Positions 15,542 through 26,108 of a stretch of DNA of 64,000 nt are shown one piece after another (the first letter of the stretch is position 1; every line of letters begins with the position of its first letter). The translations under genes and the position numbers were made by a program. Below the pieces are notes generated by a model that saw only the letters and a list, made by a program, of their open reading frames with translations, was not told where the DNA came from and did no database searches. The stretch spans positions 1 to 64,000 of the forward strand of contig NZ_JAIXZS010000100.1 of NCBI RefSeq assembly GCF_027489515.1, read 5' to 3'. Source of the stretch: Novosphingobium sp. GTDB taxonomy: Bacteria > Pseudomonadota > Alphaproteobacteria > Sphingomonadales > Sphingomonadaceae.

Positions 15542-16136
15542 GGCGCTCGATGCGCTGCTCCAGCGGATCCGCGCCTGCAGCGTCTGCGCGCCGCATCTGC
15601 CGCTGGGGCCCCGGCCGATCGTGCAGGCGGCACCCGGCGCCGCCATCCTGATCATCGGGCAGGCACCCGGCACCGCGGTCCATGCCTCGGGCATTCCCTG
15701 GGACGATCCCAGCGGAGACCGCCTGCGCGAATGGACAGGGCTCGACCGCGCGACGTTCTATGATCCGGGCAAGATCGCGCAGATGCCGATGGGCTTCTGC
15801 TATCCCGGCAAGGTTCCGGCCAAGGGCTCCGGCAGCGGCGGCGATGCTCCGCCCCGCCGCGAATGTGCGCCGTTGTGGCACGAACCGCTCAGGGCGCAGC
15901 TTGTCGCAGTACGGCTGACATTGCTGGTCGGCCAATATGCGCAGGCGACTTATGCGCCGGGGCGCAAGACAACCCTGACCGAGCGCGTCCGCGCAGCGGG
16001 AGCGAACCCGGCCGAACCGTTCGCCCTGCCCCATCCCAGTTGGCGCAGCACCATGTGGATGCGCCGCAATCCATGGTTCGAGGCAGACGTGCTACCGCTG
16101 CTTCGCGTGCGTGTGCGCGAGGCCCTGCGCGATTAG
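15531..16136 (+). CDS. Uracil-DNA glycosylase family protein
   Basis: ILIIGQAPGTAVHASGIPWDDPSGDRLREW, C-terminal LPHPSWRS. Confidence 0.85.
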   Translation: MEREALDALLQRIRACSVCAPHLPLGPRPIVQAAPGAAILIIGQAPGTAVHASGIPWDDPSGDRLREWTGLDRATFYDPGKIAQMPMGFCYPGKVPAKGSGSGGDAPPRRECAPLWHEPLRAQLVAVRLTLLVGQYAQATYAPGRKTTLTERVRAAGANPAEPFALPHPSWRSTMWMRRNPWFEADVLPLLRVRVREALRD

Positions 16137-16873
16137 CCTACGGCGGCGATCATGCGCTCGCCAAGCCACCGTCCGAGCAGCGTGCCGGCGGTGGTGACCG
16201 CCGCTTCTTCGCCGAGCGAGGCCGCCAGCCGTTCGCACACCGCAGCAAAGCCTTGCCCGGCGGCCGACCACGCGAGCACATCGCGTTCGTGCGCCTCGGC
16301 ACGGCGGAACACCGGCTCAAGGCCTTGCCGCCAGACCAGCAGCGCTGTGCCGCGCTCGGCCATTTCGGGGCCCGGCGGGGTTTCGCCGGTCGCGAGCGCC
16401 TGCCAGATCGCATCGGCGTTGGTGGCGATCGGCAGCACAAGCAGCGAAGGCACCGCGCGGATCACGGCGGTTTCCCAGTCGGCCACAGCCAGCGCTTCGG
16501 GGGCAAGCGGCTCGGCATCCGGGCTGACGAAGACCTGGCCGACGGTCCAGTCGATCAGCGCGATCTCGGCAACTTCGGGATCATCGGGCCAGAGCGTCGC
16601 GATGAAATCGGTGAAGTCCTCGCCATAGGCATCAAGCGTCCAGCTCGAGGGCGGGCGCGCATCGATATAGCGCGCCGCGGCCGCCTCGAACGCTTCGTCA
16701 CCCAGCCACAGCACAAGGCGCTGGAAGGTCTCGGCGAGGCTGGAGACCAGCGCGGTGCGGTAGTTGTTCTGATAGACCAAAGTGCCCGGCCCGCCGCCGA
16801 GCGCGGCGGCGGCGCTGTCCTCGCCGGTTACCAGCCAGTCGCGGAAATCGCGTTGCAGGTTAAGGAGGCTCAT
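16133..16873 (-). CDS. bufC: HvfC/BufC-like DUF2063 protein, putative MNIO partner/substrate-recruiting protein
   Basis: N-terminal LQRDFRDWLV...VYQNNYRTALVSSLAETFQRLVLWLGDEAF typical of DUF2063; 4-nt overlap with the MNIO gene. Confidence 0.85.
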   Translation of the reverse strand: MSLLNLQRDFRDWLVTGEDSAAAALGGGPGTLVYQNNYRTALVSSLAETFQRLVLWLGDEAFEAAAARYIDARPPSSWTLDAYGEDFTDFIATLWPDDPEVAEIALIDWTVGQVFVSPDAEPLAPEALAVADWETAVIRAVPSLLVLPIATNADAIWQALATGETPPGPEMAERGTALLVWRQGLEPVFRRAEAHERDVLAWSAAGQGFAAVCERLAASLGEEAAVTTAGTLLGRWLGERMIAAVG

Positions 16874-17694
16874 GCCGCGATCCTTTCATCGGCGGCGATA
16901 CCGCGCGCGATGTCCAGTTCGGCGCAGAGCTCCTCAAGCTCGGGGATATTGTCGTCGCGCTCGATCATCGTCGGCACAGGGCCGGCCAGCGCCACTGCGG
17001 CGCGATAGAGCGCCCAGACTTCCTCCGGCACCGGCTGGTCGTGCGTGTCGATCAGGAGGTGCTCGCCTTGAACATGCCCAGCGAGATGGATCTGCCCGAC
17101 CGCGTGCATCGGAATACCGGCAAGATAATCGGCGGCGGCAAAGCCGTGGTTCACCGCGCTGACATGGATGTTGTTGACATCGAGCAGCAAGCCGCAGCCG
17201 GTGCGCTTCGTCATCTCCGCGAGGAATTGCCATTCGGTCATCGCACCGGGAAAGGCGATGTAACTCGAGGGATTTTCGAGCAGCATGCGGCGGCCCAGCG
17301 CCTCTTGCGCGCGGTCGATATTGCGGCAGACCACATCCAGCGCTTCCTCGGTATAGGGCAGCGGCAACAGGTCGTGCGAATTGAAGCCGTCTATCCGGGT
17401 CCAGCACAAGTGGTCCGAGACCACTGCGGGCTCCATCATGTCGACAAGGCGGCGAAGCTCCTTGAGGTAATCGTCCCTGAGGCCATCGGCCGAGCCGATC
17501 GAAAGCGAGACGCCGTGGAGCGCGAGGGGATAGTTGCGGCGCGCCTTCATCAGCGTATCGAGCGGCTTGCCGCCCGGGATCATGAAGTTTTCCGAGATCA
17601 CCTCGATGAAATCGACGGGCGCGGTGCCCTCGATATAGGACCGGTAGTGCGGCCGGCGCATGCCGAGGCCAAAGCCGGTGAGGTGTTCGCTCAT
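16870..17694 (-). CDS. bufB: MNIO-family (DUF692, BufB/HvfB-type) multinuclear iron oxidative enzyme
   Basis: Conserved motifs HGVSLSIG, VSDHLCW, LENPSSY, LDVNNIHVS, HLAGH, DTHD. Confidence 0.93.
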   Translation of the reverse strand: MSEHLTGFGLGMRRPHYRSYIEGTAPVDFIEVISENFMIPGGKPLDTLMKARRNYPLALHGVSLSIGSADGLRDDYLKELRRLVDMMEPAVVSDHLCWTRIDGFNSHDLLPLPYTEEALDVVCRNIDRAQEALGRRMLLENPSSYIAFPGAMTEWQFLAEMTKRTGCGLLLDVNNIHVSAVNHGFAAADYLAGIPMHAVGQIHLAGHVQGEHLLIDTHDQPVPEEVWALYRAAVALAGPVPTMIERDDNIPELEELCAELDIARGIAADERIAA

Positions 17695-17845: not shown

Positions 17846-18115
17846 TTACTTGGGTTCGGTCAGGCTGCCGCCCTGCGCGGCGCAGGCGGCCTTGGTCAGC
17901 GCCTTGAAGCCCTGGCCCTTGCATTCGTTCTGGCCCTTGCAGCTGTGGGTGCCGGCGGCGCAGTCCGAGGTGCCCTTGCAGGTGTTCACGCCGTAGCAGT
18001 GGACAACTTCGGCGGACTTCGCCTTGGCGATCGCCGGGGCGGGGGCGACTGCCATGGCGGCAGCGATGAGGGCGGCGTTGGCAGCGATGGCGAGGCCGGT
18101 CTTGAGGGTGCTCAT
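17846..18115 (-). CDS. bufA2: Bufferin-type precursor peptide, six-Cys class (BufA2-like)
   Basis: 89 aa; signal peptide then HCYGVNTCKGTSDCAAGTHSCKGQNECKGQGFKALTKAACAAQGG; adjacent to bufB/bufC. Confidence 0.88.
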   Translation of the reverse strand: MSTLKTGLAIAANAALIAAAMAVAPAPAIAKAKSAEVVHCYGVNTCKGTSDCAAGTHSCKGQNECKGQGFKALTKAACAAQGGSLTEPK

Positions 18116-18155: not shown

Positions 18156-18181
18156 TTCGGATGCACCCACAGGCCGGTTAC
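18156..18181 (-). promoter_or_regulatory. Candidate SigF-type ECF promoter upstream of the six-Cys precursor
   Basis: Minus strand TGTAACC GGCCTGTGGGTGCATC CGAAT: GTAACC-N16-CGAA, same as at 19445. Confidence 0.75.
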
Positions 18182-18220: not shown

Positions 18221-19348
18221 TTAGGCCCGATTGCGCATCAGCCATTCGCGAAACACGGTGAGGCCCTCCGGCAGATTGCTGCGACCGAAGCCGATGCGGA
18301 AATGGTCCTGCGGCACCGGGCCAAGCTCGGAATGATAGATGCTCGAGGGGAGCAGCAGCACCCCGGTTTCCTCGACCAGCCGCTCGGTGAAGCGCTCGAC
18401 GCCGTCCTCGCCCTTGTAGCGGATGAAGGCGACGCAGCTGCCATCGGGGCGGCGCCAGTCGAACAGGTGCGGGAAATCGGCGAAGAAGCTGTCGAGCAGA
18501 CCGAGGTTGCGGTGCGCCAGATCGCGGTTGCGCCCGACGATCGCCTCGCGCGCCTTGAGCGCGATTTCGGCGAACAGTTCGGACGGCGCCGAATTGCAGA
18601 TCGAAAGGTAGTGCTTGTAGCGCTCGCAAGTCTGCAGGAACGCGCGGTCCTGGCAGGCGAGCCAGCCGATGCGCAGGCCGGGCAAGCCATAGCTCTTCGA
18701 CATGACATTGAGCGACACGCCGCGTTCGTAGACATCGGCCACCTGCGGCACGCGCGCATCGCTGCGGTGCTCGATCAGGCGGTAGACTTCATCGCTGAAC
18801 AGCCAGATCCCGCGTTCGCGGCAGAGCTCGATCAGCCCGGCGAAGGTTTCCTGCGAGGGGATCGCGCCGGTGGGGTTGTTGGGGAAGTTGATCGAGATGA
18901 GCTTCGTGTTGGGCCGCAGCGCCGCGCGCACGGCATCGAGATCGAGCGCCCAGTTCGCGTTCTCGTCGAGCGCAACCCCGGTGACCGCGCAGATCGAGAG
19001 CGGGATCGTCTCGGCCGACTGATAATTGGGTGTGATCACGATGCAGTGGTCCGCAGGCGTGAGCAGGACCTGCATGGCGACATAGATGCCCTCTTGCGCG
19101 CCCGCGAAGCACAGGAGCTGGTCCTCGTGGATCGTCTCGTATGTCTTGGCGATTTCGTGCAGCAGCGGCTCCGCGCCGAAGGTCTTTGTATAGCCGAGGT
19201 GAAGGTTGTCGAACCGTTCGCGATCAGCCGGCGAGGCATGGGCGAGCAATTGCGAAACCGTCATGCTCTGCGCGTCGGATGCGGTCAGATGATACTTCGC
19301 GGCGAATTCCCACTTCGAGAAGTATACCTCCAGCGCAAAGTTCCGCAC
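18221..19348 (-). CDS. PLP-dependent class I/II aminotransferase
   Basis: NFPNNPTGAIPS, SDEVY, SKSYGLPGLRIGW PLP-lysine motif. Confidence 0.9.
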   Translation of the reverse strand: MRNFALEVYFSKWEFAAKYHLTASDAQSMTVSQLLAHASPADRERFDNLHLGYTKTFGAEPLLHEIAKTYETIHEDQLLCFAGAQEGIYVAMQVLLTPADHCIVITPNYQSAETIPLSICAVTGVALDENANWALDLDAVRAALRPNTKLISINFPNNPTGAIPSQETFAGLIELCRERGIWLFSDEVYRLIEHRSDARVPQVADVYERGVSLNVMSKSYGLPGLRIGWLACQDRAFLQTCERYKHYLSICNSAPSELFAEIALKAREAIVGRNRDLAHRNLGLLDSFFADFPHLFDWRRPDGSCVAFIRYKGEDGVERFTERLVEETGVLLLPSSIYHSELGPVPQDHFRIGFGRSNLPEGLTVFREWLMRNRA

Positions 19349-19444: not shown

Positions 19445-19470
19445 GTAACCGCGATTGTGCAGGCGGCGAA
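19445..19470 (+). promoter_or_regulatory. Candidate SigF-type ECF promoter upstream of the DUF2282 precursor
   Basis: TGTAACC GCGATTGTGCAGGCGG CGAA: GTAACC-N16-CGAA. Confidence 0.75.
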
Positions 19471-19592: not shown

Positions 19593-19865
19593 ATGAAGAT
19601 TGCTGCAACCGCTTTCGCTGCCTCGATCGCTCTCGGCCTTGCTGCCGGTGCCGCACACGCCGCCGATGCCAAGCCCGCCATGGAAAAGTGCTACGGCGTC
19701 GCCAAGGCCGGCAAGAACGAGTGCGCCGCAGGCGCGGGCACCAGCTGCGCCGGTACCTCGAAGGTCGATTATCAGGGCAACGCCTGGACGCTGGTCAAGG
19801 CCGGCACCTGCACCTCGATCAAGACGCCCAAGGGCAACGGCTCGCTCACGCCCAAGGCGCACTGA
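19593..19865 (+). CDS. bufA1: Bufferin-type precursor peptide, four-Cys DUF2282 class (BufA1-like)
   Basis: 90 aa; signal peptide then [45 protein letters not shown] aaggaa. Confidence 0.92.
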
Positions 19866-19924: not shown

Positions 19925-20365
19925 ATGACCGCTCTCGTATCCGTCTATAACCGGCTGGCCGAGCTGACCGGGCGACTGCTGCCCGAATCCCTGCTGCTGC
20001 TGGCGGCGCGGCTTGGCATCGCAGCGGTGTTCTTCCAGTCAGGGCGAACCAAGGTCGAAGGGTTGCTGACGATCACCGACAGCACCTACTACCTGTTCGA
20101 AACCGACTACAAACTGCCGTTCGTGCCCCCGCATCTGGCCGCCCACATGGCGACCTATTCGGAGCACCTCTTTCCGATCCTGCTGTTCCTCGGCCTCGGC
20201 ACGCGCTTCGGCGCGCTGGGCCTCCTCGGCATGACCACCGTGATCGAGGTCTTCGTCTATCCCGATGCCTGGCCGACGCACCTGAGCTGGGCGGCACTTC
20301 TCCTGCCGCTCATCGCCAAGGGCGGTGGAGCACTCTCGCTCGACCGTCTGCTGCGCCGGGGCTGA
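19925..20365 (+). CDS. DoxX family membrane protein, bufferin-locus associated
   Basis: [24 protein letters not shown] ... [20 protein letters not shown]; directly follows the DUF2282 gene. Confidence 0.9.
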
Positions 20366-20540
20366 AACCCGCGCCGCCTGCTCCGCGCAGCGACCGGTCT
20401 GTATTCCTAGCGGCATGCGGGCCGGTCTTGCGGGGCGCTGGCAAAGATGCAACGGAATCGGGTGTCGGCTGCCGTATCGTGCGGCATGCCGCTCCCGGCC
20501 GTCTTTTTCCCTGGCGCGGCGGTGCAGAGAAGGACCTGTC

Positions 20541-21209
20541 ATGCCCCCCGATCGAGACGATCCCGGCATCGATCAGACGATCGCGGCGCTGGTTGGCGAT
20601 CTGTCGCCGGTGGTGCCGGTGCGCGTGTGGCGCGGCGTTGCAGCAGGGCTTCTCCTGACCGGGCTGGCTGTGCTGGCCGTGTGGCTGATCCTGGGTCTGC
20701 GCGCCGACGTACTTGCCCTTCATCCGGCGCCCGTAATGATCGCACGGGGCGCGATCCTGCTTGCGGGCGGGCTTGCCATGCTGGTCGCGGCCTTGCGCGC
20801 CGGTGTTCCGGGCCGCGCCGATGGCGGCGCGGCGCTTGTCGGCACCCTGCTCCTTGGCCTGCTGCCGATCGGCCTGATGGGCCTGCTGATGAGCAGTATC
20901 ATGGCCGGCAAGCGCATGCCGTTCGAAGAAGCCACGCCCTTTGACATCGCCCGCTGCTTTGCCGTCGCGCTGGCGACGGCGCTGCTGGTGGGGGCCGGCC
21001 TCGTGATGTGGCTGCGCCGCGCGGCGCCCACCGATCTCGCCCGTTCGGGCTGGCTGACCGGCTGGGCAGCCGCCGCGCTCGGCACGTTCGCCTATAGCCT
21101 GTTCTGTCCCTCGGGCACGATGGCCTTTGCGGCCGTCGTCTATCCTGCGGCGATGCTGCTTGCAGCCACGGTCATCCGCCTCGCGGTGCCGCCACTGCTG
21201 CGCTGGTAG
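20541..21209 (+). CDS. nrsF: NrsF/DUF1109-type membrane anti-sigma factor
   Basis: 222 aa, ~6 TM segments, IARCFAVALAT and YSLFCPSGTMAF cysteines; start trimmed to MPPDRDD. Confidence 0.85.
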   Translation: MPPDRDDPGIDQTIAALVGDLSPVVPVRVWRGVAAGLLLTGLAVLAVWLILGLRADVLALHPAPVMIARGAILLAGGLAMLVAALRAGVPGRADGGAALVGTLLLGLLPIGLMGLLMSSIMAGKRMPFEEATPFDIARCFAVALATALLVGAGLVMWLRRAAPTDLARSGWLTGWAAAALGTFAYSLFCPSGTMAFAAVVYPAAMLLAATVIRLAVPPLLRW

Positions 21210-21212
21210 GGT

Positions 21213-21881
21213 TCAGGCTTCGCGCAGCGCGGCAAGCACCTCGGCCGGTTCCGCGCGTTCGCGAAAATCGACGTTGGTATAGGCGAACCGCACGCGCCCG
21301 GCGGGATCGATGGCAAATGTCGCGGGAACCGGCAGGAAGCCGCTCGGCGAGCCATAGAGCTCATGCATGTTGATGCCGGCCTTGCTGTAGAAATCGAGCA
21401 GCGGATCACCGGCAAAGAACGTGAGACCCAGCGAGAGCGCAACGCCGTGGTCGACATCGCAGAGCACTTCCGCAACTTCCGCATGGGGTGACGCTGCGAG
21501 CAGGGCGCCCAGCGCGCGCGCACCGCCGCCGGTCTCGCCCGTGATCTCGACAAAGCGCACCCCGGCGTTGGCCAGATCGGGCAGCATCGCCGCCCAGGCC
21601 GAAACCTCGTGCACGCAATAAGGGCACCAGCGGCCCCGGCTGAAATTGACGATCACCGGCCCGGCATCGAGCAGATCACCCAGCCGGCAATAGCTGCCGG
21701 ATGCGGTCGGCAAGGAGAAATCCGGAAACATCTCCCCCACCTTGGGCGCGGCCGCACCCACGCCGGCTTCGCGCAGCGCGATCACGATCTCGTCAAAGAA
21801 CGGACCAAGGTCAGGGTTGCGGCGCCGGATCTGCGCAAGCTGCGGCGCCAGCGATGCGGAAGGAGGGGAAGGAAGGTCCAT
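21213..21881 (-). CDS. Peroxiredoxin-like (AhpC/TSA) family protein
   Basis: VIVNFSRGRWCPYCVHEVSAW. Confidence 0.88.
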   Translation of the reverse strand: MDLPSPPSASLAPQLAQIRRRNPDLGPFFDEIVIALREAGVGAAAPKVGEMFPDFSLPTASGSYCRLGDLLDAGPVIVNFSRGRWCPYCVHEVSAWAAMLPDLANAGVRFVEITGETGGGARALGALLAASPHAEVAEVLCDVDHGVALSLGLTFFAGDPLLDFYSKAGINMHELYGSPSGFLPVPATFAIDPAGRVRFAYTNVDFRERAEPAEVLAALREA

Positions 21882-21950
21882 TACGGTCTCATAGGAGTGA
21901 TTGCCGCGCAGAGGAAACGCCCTCCGGTGCATCGAGTCCATGCGCAGTCC

Positions 21951-22853
21951 CTATGGTTCCGGCATCAGATCGGTGCCATTGGCAAGGGCCCAGTCCTGCG
22001 CGCGGGCGACGCGCAAAAAGGCCTCGGCGGCAACCGAGCGGCGTCTCCCCGCGACCGAGGCAAGCACGAAACGCGCCTCGACCGGTCCGAACGGCAACTC
22101 GGTTGCGGCAAGCGGCGGCGCGGCAAGGCTGCGCGGGGTCCAGCCGCAGCCGAGCCCGGCCTGCACCATCTGGCGCAGCTGCACGGCCCCCTGGGCCTGG
22201 TGCCGCACTTCGATCGCGGCACCGGCCTGCGTCGCGATCCGCGCAAGCGCGGCACAGCCATCGCCGGCAAGATCGATCCAGGCTTCGTCTTCGAGCACAG
22301 CCGGCGCGGTGGGCGGGGCGGTGGCAAAGGGGTGGTCCGCCCGCGTGACGATGCACCAGGCGTCCGCGAACAGCGGCCAGCAATCGAGCCGCTCGGGTGC
22401 TTCGTCCGGCATTTCGACGATGATAAGGTCGAGCGAACCGGACATGGCCAGTTCGACGAGTTCGCGCGAGGAGCCGCTGGCCAGCGCCAGTTCGAGCCCG
22501 GCAAGGCTTCTGCCGAGCTCTCCCAGCACACGTTCCAGCGTCGCATGCTCAACCGTCCGCGCGACGCCGAGTGCGAGCGGGGCGATTTCCGCCCGGCCCA
22601 TGCCGCGCGCCATCTGCTTGGCAGTCTGTGCAGCCTCGAAGCTGCGTTCGAGATGCGGCAGCATCGCCTTGCCGAGTTCGGTGAGGTGGGTGCGCGCGCG
22701 CTCGCGGCGAAACAGCGGCGCGCCGAATTCGTCTTCCAGCTTCTGGATCGCCTTGGTCAGCGAAGGCTGCGAGACGTTGCATTCGATGGCGGCGCGCGTG
22801 AAGTTCAGCAGGCGTGCTGCGGCCAGGAAGTACCGGACCTGATGCATTTCCAT
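21951..22853 (-). CDS. LysR-family transcriptional regulator
   Basis: MEMHQVRYFLAAARLLNFTRAAIECNVSQPSLTKAIQKLEDEFG. Confidence 0.93.
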   Translation of the reverse strand: MEMHQVRYFLAAARLLNFTRAAIECNVSQPSLTKAIQKLEDEFGAPLFRRERARTHLTELGKAMLPHLERSFEAAQTAKQMARGMGRAEIAPLALGVARTVEHATLERVLGELGRSLAGLELALASGSSRELVELAMSGSLDLIIVEMPDEAPERLDCWPLFADAWCIVTRADHPFATAPPTAPAVLEDEAWIDLAGDGCAALARIATQAGAAIEVRHQAQGAVQLRQMVQAGLGCGWTPRSLAAPPLAATELPFGPVEARFVLASVAGRRRSVAAEAFLRVARAQDWALANGTDLMPEP

Positions 22854-22987
22854 GGCTGCGCTGCCCTGTGCCTGCAATCACCGAGCGCTACCGGCATGGC
22901 CGGCACCGCTCGAACACCGCAAAAGTCAAAGATGTCGGCTGTTCGACCTGACAACAATGAGCGTCAACGATGCCTGTCGCAAGCGTT

Positions 22988-23014
22988 GTAACCAACATAT
23001 GATCTATCCACGAA
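22988..23014 (+). promoter_or_regulatory. Weaker SigF-like motif (N17 spacer) upstream of LysR
   Basis: TGTAACC AACATATGATCTATCCA CGAA. Confidence 0.4.
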
Positions 23015-23086
23015 CTGCATGGAACAGGGCAAAAACAGACCGGAATGGTGCTTTGTCCGCATCGACCAATCGTGCAGGAGTGCAAG

Positions 23087-23983
23087 GTGAACGATCTTAC
23101 CGGCTGGATGCGCACATTCATCACCGTGGCGGATGCGGCCAGCTTCAGCCGCGCCGCCGCGCGTCTCGAACTGCCGCAGTCGACGGTATCGCGCCAGGTC
23201 GGTGCGCTGGAGCGGCATCTCGGTGCGGCCCTGCTCAAGCGCACCACGCGCTCGATCGCGCTGACCAGCGAGGGGCAGGCCTACTACGAGGCCGCGCTGC
23301 GGGCGCTCGCCGCGATCGACGAGGCCGAGGCTGCCGTCGGCGTCCACGGCGCGCTTGGCGGGCAAGTGCGCATGACCGCCCCGCTTACGCTCGCCCAGTC
23401 GCGCGTGATCGCCATGCTCGCGCAGTTCCAGCGCCTGCAGCCGCGCATCGAAGTGGATCTCAGGGTCTCCGACCACGCGCTCAACCTTGTGTCCGACAAT
23501 CTCGATTTCGCAATCCGGGTGGGGGTGATCGGGGACAGCCGCTCGATTGTGCGCCGTATCGGGACCTGCCGGCGCGTGATGGTCGCCTCGCCGGCCTATC
23601 TCGAGGAGTATGGCCTGCCGCACCGGCCCGCTGATCTCGCCGCGCACAATTGCCTCAGCTACGCGCTGCTCGCTTCGGGCAACAAATGGGCGCTCGGCAA
23701 GGAGCCGCCAGTCGAAGTGAGCGGGAGCTTCCGCGCCGACAGCCCGGATGCGCTGCGGGCGGCGGCGCTGGCGGGCATCGGCATCGCGGTCAACGCGCGG
23801 TGGCTGTTCGAGGACGATCTGGCGAGCGGCCGGCTGGTGGAATTGCTCCCCGATCATCCCCCGGCGGACATGCCGATCCACCTCGTCATGCCGGCCGGGC
23901 GCTACGTCGCGGCGCGCGTGCGCGCGCTGGCCGACCACATCATCGGAGCCTTTGCCGCCGATCCGCTGTTGCGCTCGGCCTGA
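23087..23983 (+). CDS. LysR-family transcriptional regulator
   Basis: GTG start after caggagtgcaag; VNDLTGWMRTFITVADAASFSRAAARLELPQSTVSRQVGALERHLG. Confidence 0.93.
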   Translation: MNDLTGWMRTFITVADAASFSRAAARLELPQSTVSRQVGALERHLGAALLKRTTRSIALTSEGQAYYEAALRALAAIDEAEAAVGVHGALGGQVRMTAPLTLAQSRVIAMLAQFQRLQPRIEVDLRVSDHALNLVSDNLDFAIRVGVIGDSRSIVRRIGTCRRVMVASPAYLEEYGLPHRPADLAAHNCLSYALLASGNKWALGKEPPVEVSGSFRADSPDALRAAALAGIGIAVNARWLFEDDLASGRLVELLPDHPPADMPIHLVMPAGRYVAARVRALADHIIGAFAADPLLRSA

Positions 23984-23986
23984 GTT

Positions 23987-24012
23987 GTAACGATCCCGCC
24001 GCGCGCCGCGAA
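23987..24012 (+). promoter_or_regulatory. Candidate SigF-type promoter upstream of the NDH-2-like gene
   Basis: TGTAACG ATCCCGCCGCGCGCCG CGAA: GTAACG-N16-CGAA. Confidence 0.6.
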
Positions 24013-24043
24013 CCTTGCGGGCAGGCAATGCGGGAGCGACAGG

Positions 24044-25411
24044 ATGGTTGGCGAAACAGGCGACACGGCCGCTGCGGCGCAAGGCAAGCGCCCGCACGTG
24101 ATCATTGTGGGCGGCGGCTTCGGCGGTCTGGCAGCGGCCAAGGCACTTGCCGGTGCGCCGGTCGACGTGACGCTGATCGACAAGCGCAACCACCACCTGT
24201 TTCAGCCGCTGCTCTATCAGGTGGCCACTGCCGGCCTCTCGCCAGCGGACATTGCCGGCTCGATCCGCGCGATCCTGGCGCGGCAGAAGAATGTGCGCGT
24301 GCTGCTCGACCGGGTCTACGGCGTCGACCGGGAGCGCCGCCGGGTGATCCTCGGCGATGGCGAACCCCTGGCCTATGACTGGCTGATCATCGCTACGGGG
24401 GCGACGCACAGCTATTTCGGCCGCGAAGATTGGGCGCCCTATGCGCCCGGCGTGAAGACCATCGACGATGCCACCGCGATTCGCCGCCGCGTTCTCCTCG
24501 CGCTCGAGCGCGCCGAGACCGAGACCGACGAAGACAAGCGCAAGGCGCTGCTCACCTTCGTGGTGATCGGCGGCGGGCCGACCGGCGTAGAGATGGCAGG
24601 CGCGATTGCCGAACTCGCCCGCCAGTCCGTTAGCATGGATTTCCGCCATATCACCCCGCATTGCTCGCGGATTTTCCTGCTCCAGAAGGGCGACCGCCTG
24701 CTGCCCGCGTTTCCGCCTGCGCTATCGGCCAAGGCGCGCAAGGGGATCGAGGAACTCGGCGTCGAGGTCCGGCTCGAGGCGCACGTCACCGAAATCGATG
24801 CGGACGGGGTGATCGTCGATGGCGAGCGGATCTCGGCAGCCACGACGATCTGGGCGTCGGGCGTGATGGCGAGCCGCGCGGCGGAATGGCTCGGCTGCAA
24901 TGGCGACCGGGCGGGCCGCGTTCCGGTGGGGGCGGACTTCCATCCGGCCGGTGATCCAGCCGTGTTCGTGATCGGTGATACCGCCGCCTGCACCGATGCG
25001 GCCGGGCGCGCCCTGCCCGGAGTCGCCCCGGTGGCCAAGCAGCAGGGCCAGCATGCTGCCCGTGCCATCCGCGATGCGCTGGGCGGCCGGACCACGCCGC
25101 CTTTCCGCTACCGTGACTATGGCAACATGGCGACGATCGGGCGCAGCCGGGCCATCGCCGATTTCGGCCGTCTGCGCGTGACGGGCCTTGCCGCCTGGCT
25201 GCTGTGGTGCGTGGCCCATATCTGGTTCCTGACCGGGCACCGCAACCGGATTTCAGTCGGAATCAGCTGGTTGTGGAGCTACCTCACCTATCAGCGGGGC
25301 GCGCGTCTGATCACCGGCGATGTGGCGCCAGACCTGCCCGCGACATGGGAACTGGCCCCCGCACTGGGACGAAATCGGGCGGGGCATCTTGAAGTTATCC
25401 CTGCAGAATAA
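24044..25411 (+). CDS. Type II NADH dehydrogenase-like FAD/NAD(P) oxidoreductase
   Basis: VIIVGGGFGGLAAAKALAG, FVVIGGGPTGVEMAGAIAEL, VFVIGDTA. Confidence 0.92.
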   Translation: MVGETGDTAAAAQGKRPHVIIVGGGFGGLAAAKALAGAPVDVTLIDKRNHHLFQPLLYQVATAGLSPADIAGSIRAILARQKNVRVLLDRVYGVDRERRRVILGDGEPLAYDWLIIATGATHSYFGREDWAPYAPGVKTIDDATAIRRRVLLALERAETETDEDKRKALLTFVVIGGGPTGVEMAGAIAELARQSVSMDFRHITPHCSRIFLLQKGDRLLPAFPPALSAKARKGIEELGVEVRLEAHVTEIDADGVIVDGERISAATTIWASGVMASRAAEWLGCNGDRAGRVPVGADFHPAGDPAVFVIGDTAACTDAAGRALPGVAPVAKQQGQHAARAIRDALGGRTTPPFRYRDYGNMATIGRSRAIADFGRLRVTGLAAWLLWCVAHIWFLTGHRNRISVGISWLWSYLTYQRGARLITGDVAPDLPATWELAPALGRNRAGHLEVIPAE

Positions 25412-25523
25412 TGACTTAACCCCACTCATTCCCGGCATGCATTGATAATATAACCGCTTGATGCGTGTTCGCCTCGGCGCGGCTCGGGCACTGTCAGTGC
25501 ATCGAGAGGTTTTGGAGGAAAGC

Positions 25524-26108
25524 ATGGCAAGCCAACTGGAGACCGCCCGGCACGCCGCACATGGCCCGCGCAAGAGCGCCGGCTTCGACTGGGAGGGGGC
25601 CATGGCCGCGAGCCTCGCCGGTGATGCCGCGGCGTACCGCCGCCTGCTGGAAGAGGCCGGCCGCTGGCTCCGCCGCTACTTTGCCCGCCGCCTTTCCCCC
25701 GAAATGATCGACGATGCGGTGCAGGAAGCGCTCACCGCGCTTCACCTCAAGCGCGCAACGTTCGAGCCGGGGCGTCCGTTCCTGCCCTGGCTTGCCGCGA
25801 TTGCCCGCTTCAAGGGTGTGGATTGCCTGCGCAGCGCCGGGCGCAACCGCGCCGAGGAACTCGACGAGGGCCTGCATGGTGTGCCCAGCCACGAAAGCGC
25901 TTCGCTCAGCGGGATCGTGATGGCCGGGCTGTTCGACCGCCTGCGCCGCCCGCAGGCCGATGCGATCCGGCTGGTCAAGCTGCAGGGCTTCTCGGTGCGC
26001 GAGGCTGCGGCGATGACCGGGCAGTCCGAAGCGCTGGTCAAGGTCAACATCCACCGTGGGCTTGCCGCGCTCAAGTCTTTCTTCGGCGAGGGCGATTTCG
26101 CCTTGTGA
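25524..26108 (+). CDS. ECF-type RNA polymerase sigma factor (SigF-like)
   Basis: Region 2 DDAVQEALTALHLKRATFEPGRPFLPWLAAIARFKGVDCLR; region 4 VKLQGFSVREAAAMTGQSEALVKVNIHRGLAALK; SD ggagga. Confidence 0.9.
   Translation: MASQLETARHAAHGPRKSAGFDWEGAMAASLAGDAAAYRRLLEEAGRWLRRYFARRLSPEMIDDAVQEALTALHLKRATFEPGRPFLPWLAAIARFKGVDCLRSAGRNRAEELDEGLHGVPSHESASLSGIVMAGLFDRLRRPQADAIRLVKLQGFSVREAAAMTGQSEALVKVNIHRGLAALKSFFGEGDFAL

Follow-up and report, generated by a model that had tools for sequence, protein, structure and literature searches.

A 64,000-nucleotide stretch of a Novosphingobium genome (the window) very probably holds an ECF16 SigF-NrsF switch, a known system, in a form in which sigma and anti-sigma gene are transcribed as separate units. 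A shared locus is the usual ground for reading an ECF sigma factor and an anti-sigma factor as a pair, and their ratio is generally taken to be set by co-transcription. Here, computation found sigF and nrsF apart, paired in single copy and surrounded by SigF-type boxes, in a clade that shares the separation and whose NrsF proteins keep two cysteines. Our main reading, to which we give a probability of roughly 0.8, is that the window encodes one SigF/NrsF ECF16-type stress switch whose halves were separated once, in the clade ancestor, and which would work as follows. NrsF in the inner membrane would hold the sigma factor and let it go when metal or oxidant stress affects the two conserved NrsF cysteines; the freed sigma would then transcribe bufA2-bufB, bufA1-doxX and the type II NADH dehydrogenase (NDH-2) gene from GTAAC-N17-CGAA promoters, with possible read-through from NDH-2 into sigF. 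Since nrsF and sigF would now be separate transcription units, the sigF:nrsF ratio would no longer be set by co-transcription.

Gene organization of the locus

The left part of the locus is a bufferin gene cluster containing a precursor, an MNIO enzyme and a partner, with bufA1, bufA2 and bufB recognized by profile and the partner by eye only. On the reverse strand lie this probable DUF2063/BufC-type partner gene (ORF at 16133..16873, which shares 4 nt with the beginning of bufB), the MNIO-type maturase gene bufB (16870..17694; PF05114, E=2.8e-107; NF050167 above cut-off) and the BufA2-type precursor gene (17846..18115; NF050166, 101 bits against a cut-off of 60). An aminotransferase class I/II gene (18221..19348, reverse strand; PF00155), found in some relatives only, lies between this unit and the divergent bufA1-doxX unit, which comprises the DUF2282 precursor gene bufA1 (19593..19865; PF10048, E=3.5e-24) and a DoxX-family membrane protein gene (19925..20365; PF07681). 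Both bufferin units lie 5' of nrsF, and bufA1 and doxX share its forward strand.

As the initial annotation had stated, nrsF (20541..21209, forward) and the ECF sigma gene (25524..26108, forward; PF04542 and PF08281) are split by about 4.3 kb, and ORFs and profiles bear out their coordinates, strands and identities; exactly 4314 nt separate one ORF from the other. Profile matches likewise confirm the genes described in between: an AhpC/TSA-family peroxiredoxin-like (Prx-like) gene (21213..21941, reverse; PF00578), two LysR-family regulators (LysR1, 21951..22877, reverse; LysR2, 23087..23983, forward; both PF00126 and PF03466) and NDH-2 (24044..25411, forward; PF07992, with a weak NDH2_C match below cut-off).

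The sigma factor and NrsF are very probably cognate

The window sigma and NrsF are very probably a cognate pair of the SigF/NrsF ECF16 type, as judged from profiles, copy number and proximity. The sigma has Sigma70 regions 2 and 4 only and, at 194 aa, is of ECF size. Its placement in ECF16 comes from one tree, in which it groups with sigmas that have nrsF downstream. Direct linkage of the sigma gene to a DUF1109/NrsF anti-sigma gene is a mark of ECF16, and the window pair lies 4.3 kb apart; the literature consulted describes the linked operon as usual, not required, so the split does not exclude the sigma from the group. NrsF matches PF06532 over its full length (profile positions 1-204 of 204; E=3.8e-26; 92.6 bits against a gathering score of 26.8). 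Its only cysteines, C139 and C189, are 50 residues apart and conserved in all 13 split NrsF proteins. Simple hydropathy gives five segments, where six transmembrane helices are the mark of NrsF, and a sequence search found no solved structure of a relative.

A reading in which this NrsF serves a different sigma and the window sigma is an orphan had to be weighed, and the initial annotation had called for a search for another sigma gene adjacent to a second nrsF and had named a different sigma pairing with this NrsF as a refutation. Neither was found in the genome, where NrsF has a single match and the window sigma is the sole close match of its kind. Against a profile of 60 SigF-like sigmas, mostly NrsF-paired and including the window's own, it scores 245 bits and the next sigma of the genome 79 bits; the latter has an anti-sigma of its own, of the RskA type, whose gene begins within that of the sigma, and another sigma was rejected as the partner of this NrsF. 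Eight of the 12 split genomes have no second match to either sigF or nrsF, and in all 12 the two genes lie at most 4.4 kb from one another. One genome (G225, discussed below) does have a split-clade sigma and no detectable NrsF; weighed together, these observations make an orphan sigma highly improbable and leave the cognate pairing standing. Sigmas without a neighbouring anti-sigma gene should accordingly not be called orphans before a wider look.

The separation is rare and was probably a single event

Among 196 Novosphingobium genomes we found 119 sigma matches (E<=1e-20), and the expectation that NrsF usually sits next to its ECF sigma held: in 98 of them nrsF immediately follows the sigma gene in the same orientation, and the gap between the two has a median of 50 nt and never exceeds 77 nt. 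Twelve, the window included, have the two genes separated by 2.9-4.4 kb (nrsF on the same strand as the sigma in 11, on the opposite strand in G005), and the remaining nine have no nrsF on the same contig. The same kind of separation in 11 other genomes rules out an assembly artefact or chance as the cause of the split. A search beyond the genus, in other named genomes, returned 80 loci: 66 adjacent, two without nrsF in reach and 12 non-adjacent, the last comprising seven of the same split clade, three head-to-head pairs within 300 nt and two Blastomonas loci. In these Blastomonas loci (L184 and L192) sigF-nrsF is independently interrupted by a reverse-strand gene of the metallo-beta-lactamase fold with its own SigF-type box, and homologues of Prx, LysR1 and LysR2 lie nearby.

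In the sigma tree, the 12 split sigmas and that of G225 form one clade (support 100/98). In the NrsF tree the split members fall into two unjoined groups, with a weak backbone and several long branches. We infer, mainly from the sigma tree, that the separation happened once, before the members of this small Novosphingobium clade diverged. Where the pair is intact, as in the relatives G044, G031 and G008, the genes have the order bufA1-doxX-sigF-nrsF behind one SigF box with bufA2-bufB divergent, and this ancestral-like order is seen at L101, L102 and L104. The split clade instead has nrsF, Prx and LysR1 reversed, LysR2, NDH-2 (in most members) and sigF. The suggestion that the locus is a rearranged ancestral sigF-nrsF pair, to be examined by synteny, is thus well supported by the adjacency rule and the single sigma clade, and is the best reading of the split.

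The sigma of G225 (Novosphingobium taihuense, L150) belongs to the split clade, and boxes precede both the bufferin genes and NDH-2 in this genome. No NrsF was detected there, the genome being 99% complete, and not every member of the split clade can therefore be taken to depend on NrsF. Together with the intact-operon relatives, the split clade and G225 amount to a natural test of the need for a shared operon: the effect of adjacency on leakiness, dose-response and shut-off could be tested on the split clade.

SigF-type boxes precede both bufferin units and NDH-2

The SigF box of Caulobacter crescentus is GTAACC-N16-CGAA (PMC3511200), and the ECF16 promoter consensus is (T/C)GTAAC-N17-CGAA (PMC8315932). 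By these consensuses the window has three exact boxes, each preceded by T, which are putative promoters: GTAACC-N16-CGAA upstream of bufA2 (18156..18181, reverse), a pattern match upstream of bufA1-doxX (19445..19470, forward) and GTAACG-N16-CGAA (23987..24012, forward), whose end is 31 nt 5' of the NDH-2 start codon. The 4.29 Mb genome has 15 exact boxes, and the chance of any cluster such as these three within 5.9 kb is about 0.0025. There is no genome-wide excess (15 against 20 for a reversed-pattern control), and we dropped the genome-wide count as evidence for a regulon, using clustering and conservation instead.

Alignment shows the NDH-2 box to be kept among relatives although its spacer diverges. 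Nine split-clade loci carry an exact copy, G005 carries one with a single mismatch, and the eight other NDH-2 relatives checked in the genus have none (G170 could not be scored). NDH-2 thereby becomes a candidate new target gene within the bufferin/SigF metal response.

Regulation of sigF and nrsF after the separation

Upstream of sigF, alignment revealed a conserved element, ATAACCGCTTGATGCGTG (25450..25467, forward), 74 nt 5' of the start codon. The pattern ATAACC...CGTG recurs 73 or 74 nt 5' of the start in 10 of 13 genomes, and in one further genome the spacing depends on the start codon chosen. No convincing SigF box lies directly upstream of sigF in the window or in its split-clade relatives; a one-mismatch box near the window sigF was rejected, as it falls within the NDH-2 reading frame and relatives do not conserve it. 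A sigma-70 promoter scan found nothing. In four members (G214, G114, G098, G225), moreover, NDH-2 is not immediately 5' of sigF. Given the conserved element, the missing SigF box and the variable position of NDH-2, a promoter belonging to sigF itself is very likely, and SigF-driven transcription could run on from NDH-2 into sigF in only some members of the clade.

Between doxX and nrsF lies a strong, conserved hairpin (20392..20427, forward), identified from alignment, fold score (z=-3.4) and pair counts. Its pairing is conserved in 95% of cells; covariation is weak, the score being reached by 37 of 500 shuffles, and the case for the hairpin therefore rests on conserved pairing and U-runs. In G020, G217 and G218 hairpin and U-run make a canonical terminator, whereas the U-run is lost in the group that includes the window. 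SigF control of nrsF may also take another route: in G214, G098 and G005, in which doxX is not the gene immediately before nrsF, a SigF box with one mismatch is found about 200 nt or less upstream of nrsF, which makes such control plausible, at a chance per gene of about 3-5% for a one-mismatch box in 400 nt and in a test made after looking.

These observations bear on the proposal that the split is a designed double feedback, negative through a bufA1-doxX-nrsF operon and positive through an NDH-2-sigF operon. Boxes precede both units, and the conserved NDH-2 box of the split clade, lacking in other NDH-2 relatives, speaks for the positive arm, as does the U-run loss for the negative arm, since it would permit read-through into nrsF. 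However, the terminator of three relatives leaves the negative arm weak, and the positive arm has against it both the sigma's own conserved element, with no SigF box directly upstream, and the four genomes that have no NDH-2 directly 5' of sigF. We regard the designed double feedback as rather unlikely; the feedback scheme of the initial annotation as a whole is possible, not established.

A neutral rearrangement, in which the pair works in trans and its separation is tolerated with no regulatory consequence, is a stronger contender, at somewhat under even odds. Gene order within the clade varies in a way that fits drift, since G005 has its nrsF on the strand opposite to sigF and NDH-2 may be present or absent, and the two Blastomonas loci likewise have a pair broken by a gene on the reverse strand. 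Neutrality is harder to reconcile with the near-fixed distance of the sigma-proximal element in most members and with an NDH-2 box that outlasts its spacer, which together suggest selection on the new wiring. Such wiring might have taken sigF out of SigF autoregulation and placed it under the -74 element while nrsF stayed SigF-responsive, making negative feedback dominant, in place of the usual co-transcribed pair, and bringing the respiratory NDH-2 into a metal-stress regulon; we consider this specific rewired switch unlikely and offer it tentatively. The -74 element would perhaps be recognized by another sigma or by the always adjacent LysR.

Comparison with known ECF16 systems

The single switch with separated halves that we favour has close counterparts. 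The SigF-NrsF system of C. crescentus (PMC3511200) likewise pairs an ECF sigma with a DUF1109/NrsF protein and uses GTAACC-N16-CGAA promoters; its NrsF cysteines, C131 and C181, have the spacing of 50 seen for C139 and C189 in the window, and its regulon includes two DUF2282-DUF692 bufferin units, DoxX and an Oxidored_molyb protein. There, however, sigF and nrsF share an operon that a SigF box immediately precedes, whereas the window has separate units and it is NDH-2 that carries the box. In Bradyrhizobium japonicum (PMC3420878), EcfF and OsrA are also an ECF16 sigma and a six-TM DUF1109 anti-sigma, with Msr and DsbD-like targets, and OsrA C129 and C179 are again 50 apart; that pair forms an adjacent, autoregulated operon with interaction demonstrated by two-hybrid, while the window pair is split and its interaction is predicted. 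BcrS-AbcS of Brucella melitensis and RpoE7-EcfR7 of Sinorhizobium meliloti (PMC8315932, PMC6180224) share the ECF16 pairing and the promoter consensus with the window, the former co-transcribed and the latter adjacent with its own box, unlike the split window pair.

A survey of bufferin clusters (PMC12452194) links bufA, bufB and doxX to sigma and NrsF genes as in the window, and the portions of it that we drew on do not describe a sigma and NrsF parted by other genes. A precedent for an anti-sigma gene away from its sigma is S. meliloti RpoE2 with RsiA1 and RsiA2 (reviewed in PMC8103513), which differs in that one anti-sigma stays in the sigma operon and in that it belongs to another ECF group.

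Further candidate targets and associated genes

Outside the window, boxes precede genes for MsrB, cytochrome b561 followed by an Oxidored_molyb protein, and DsbD-like and DUF1223 proteins. These are typical ECF16 targets, and we treat them as leads only, because the 15 boxes do not exceed the control and isolated sites are accordingly unproven.

A hydrophobic protein of about 43 residues, with an invariant DKSG motif and a methionine-rich end, is encoded behind a SigF-type box, divergent from a split-type sigma gene. It has convincing matches in five genomes of the genus only (L148:12228-12356, reverse; L149:8197-8331, forward; L150:9138-9266, reverse; L152:6118-6243, reverse; L153:7059-7184, forward), none being in the window's genome, and the two members scanned have no Pfam match. 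In G202 and G160 the DKSG gene adjoins a second, truncated sigma paralogue (L152:6540-6767 and L153:6523-6750) that consists of region 2 only, region 4 not being found in the reading frames inspected. Within the window, a box-like GTAACC-N17-CGAA whose spacer is one base too long lies between the divergent LysR genes (22988-23014, forward).
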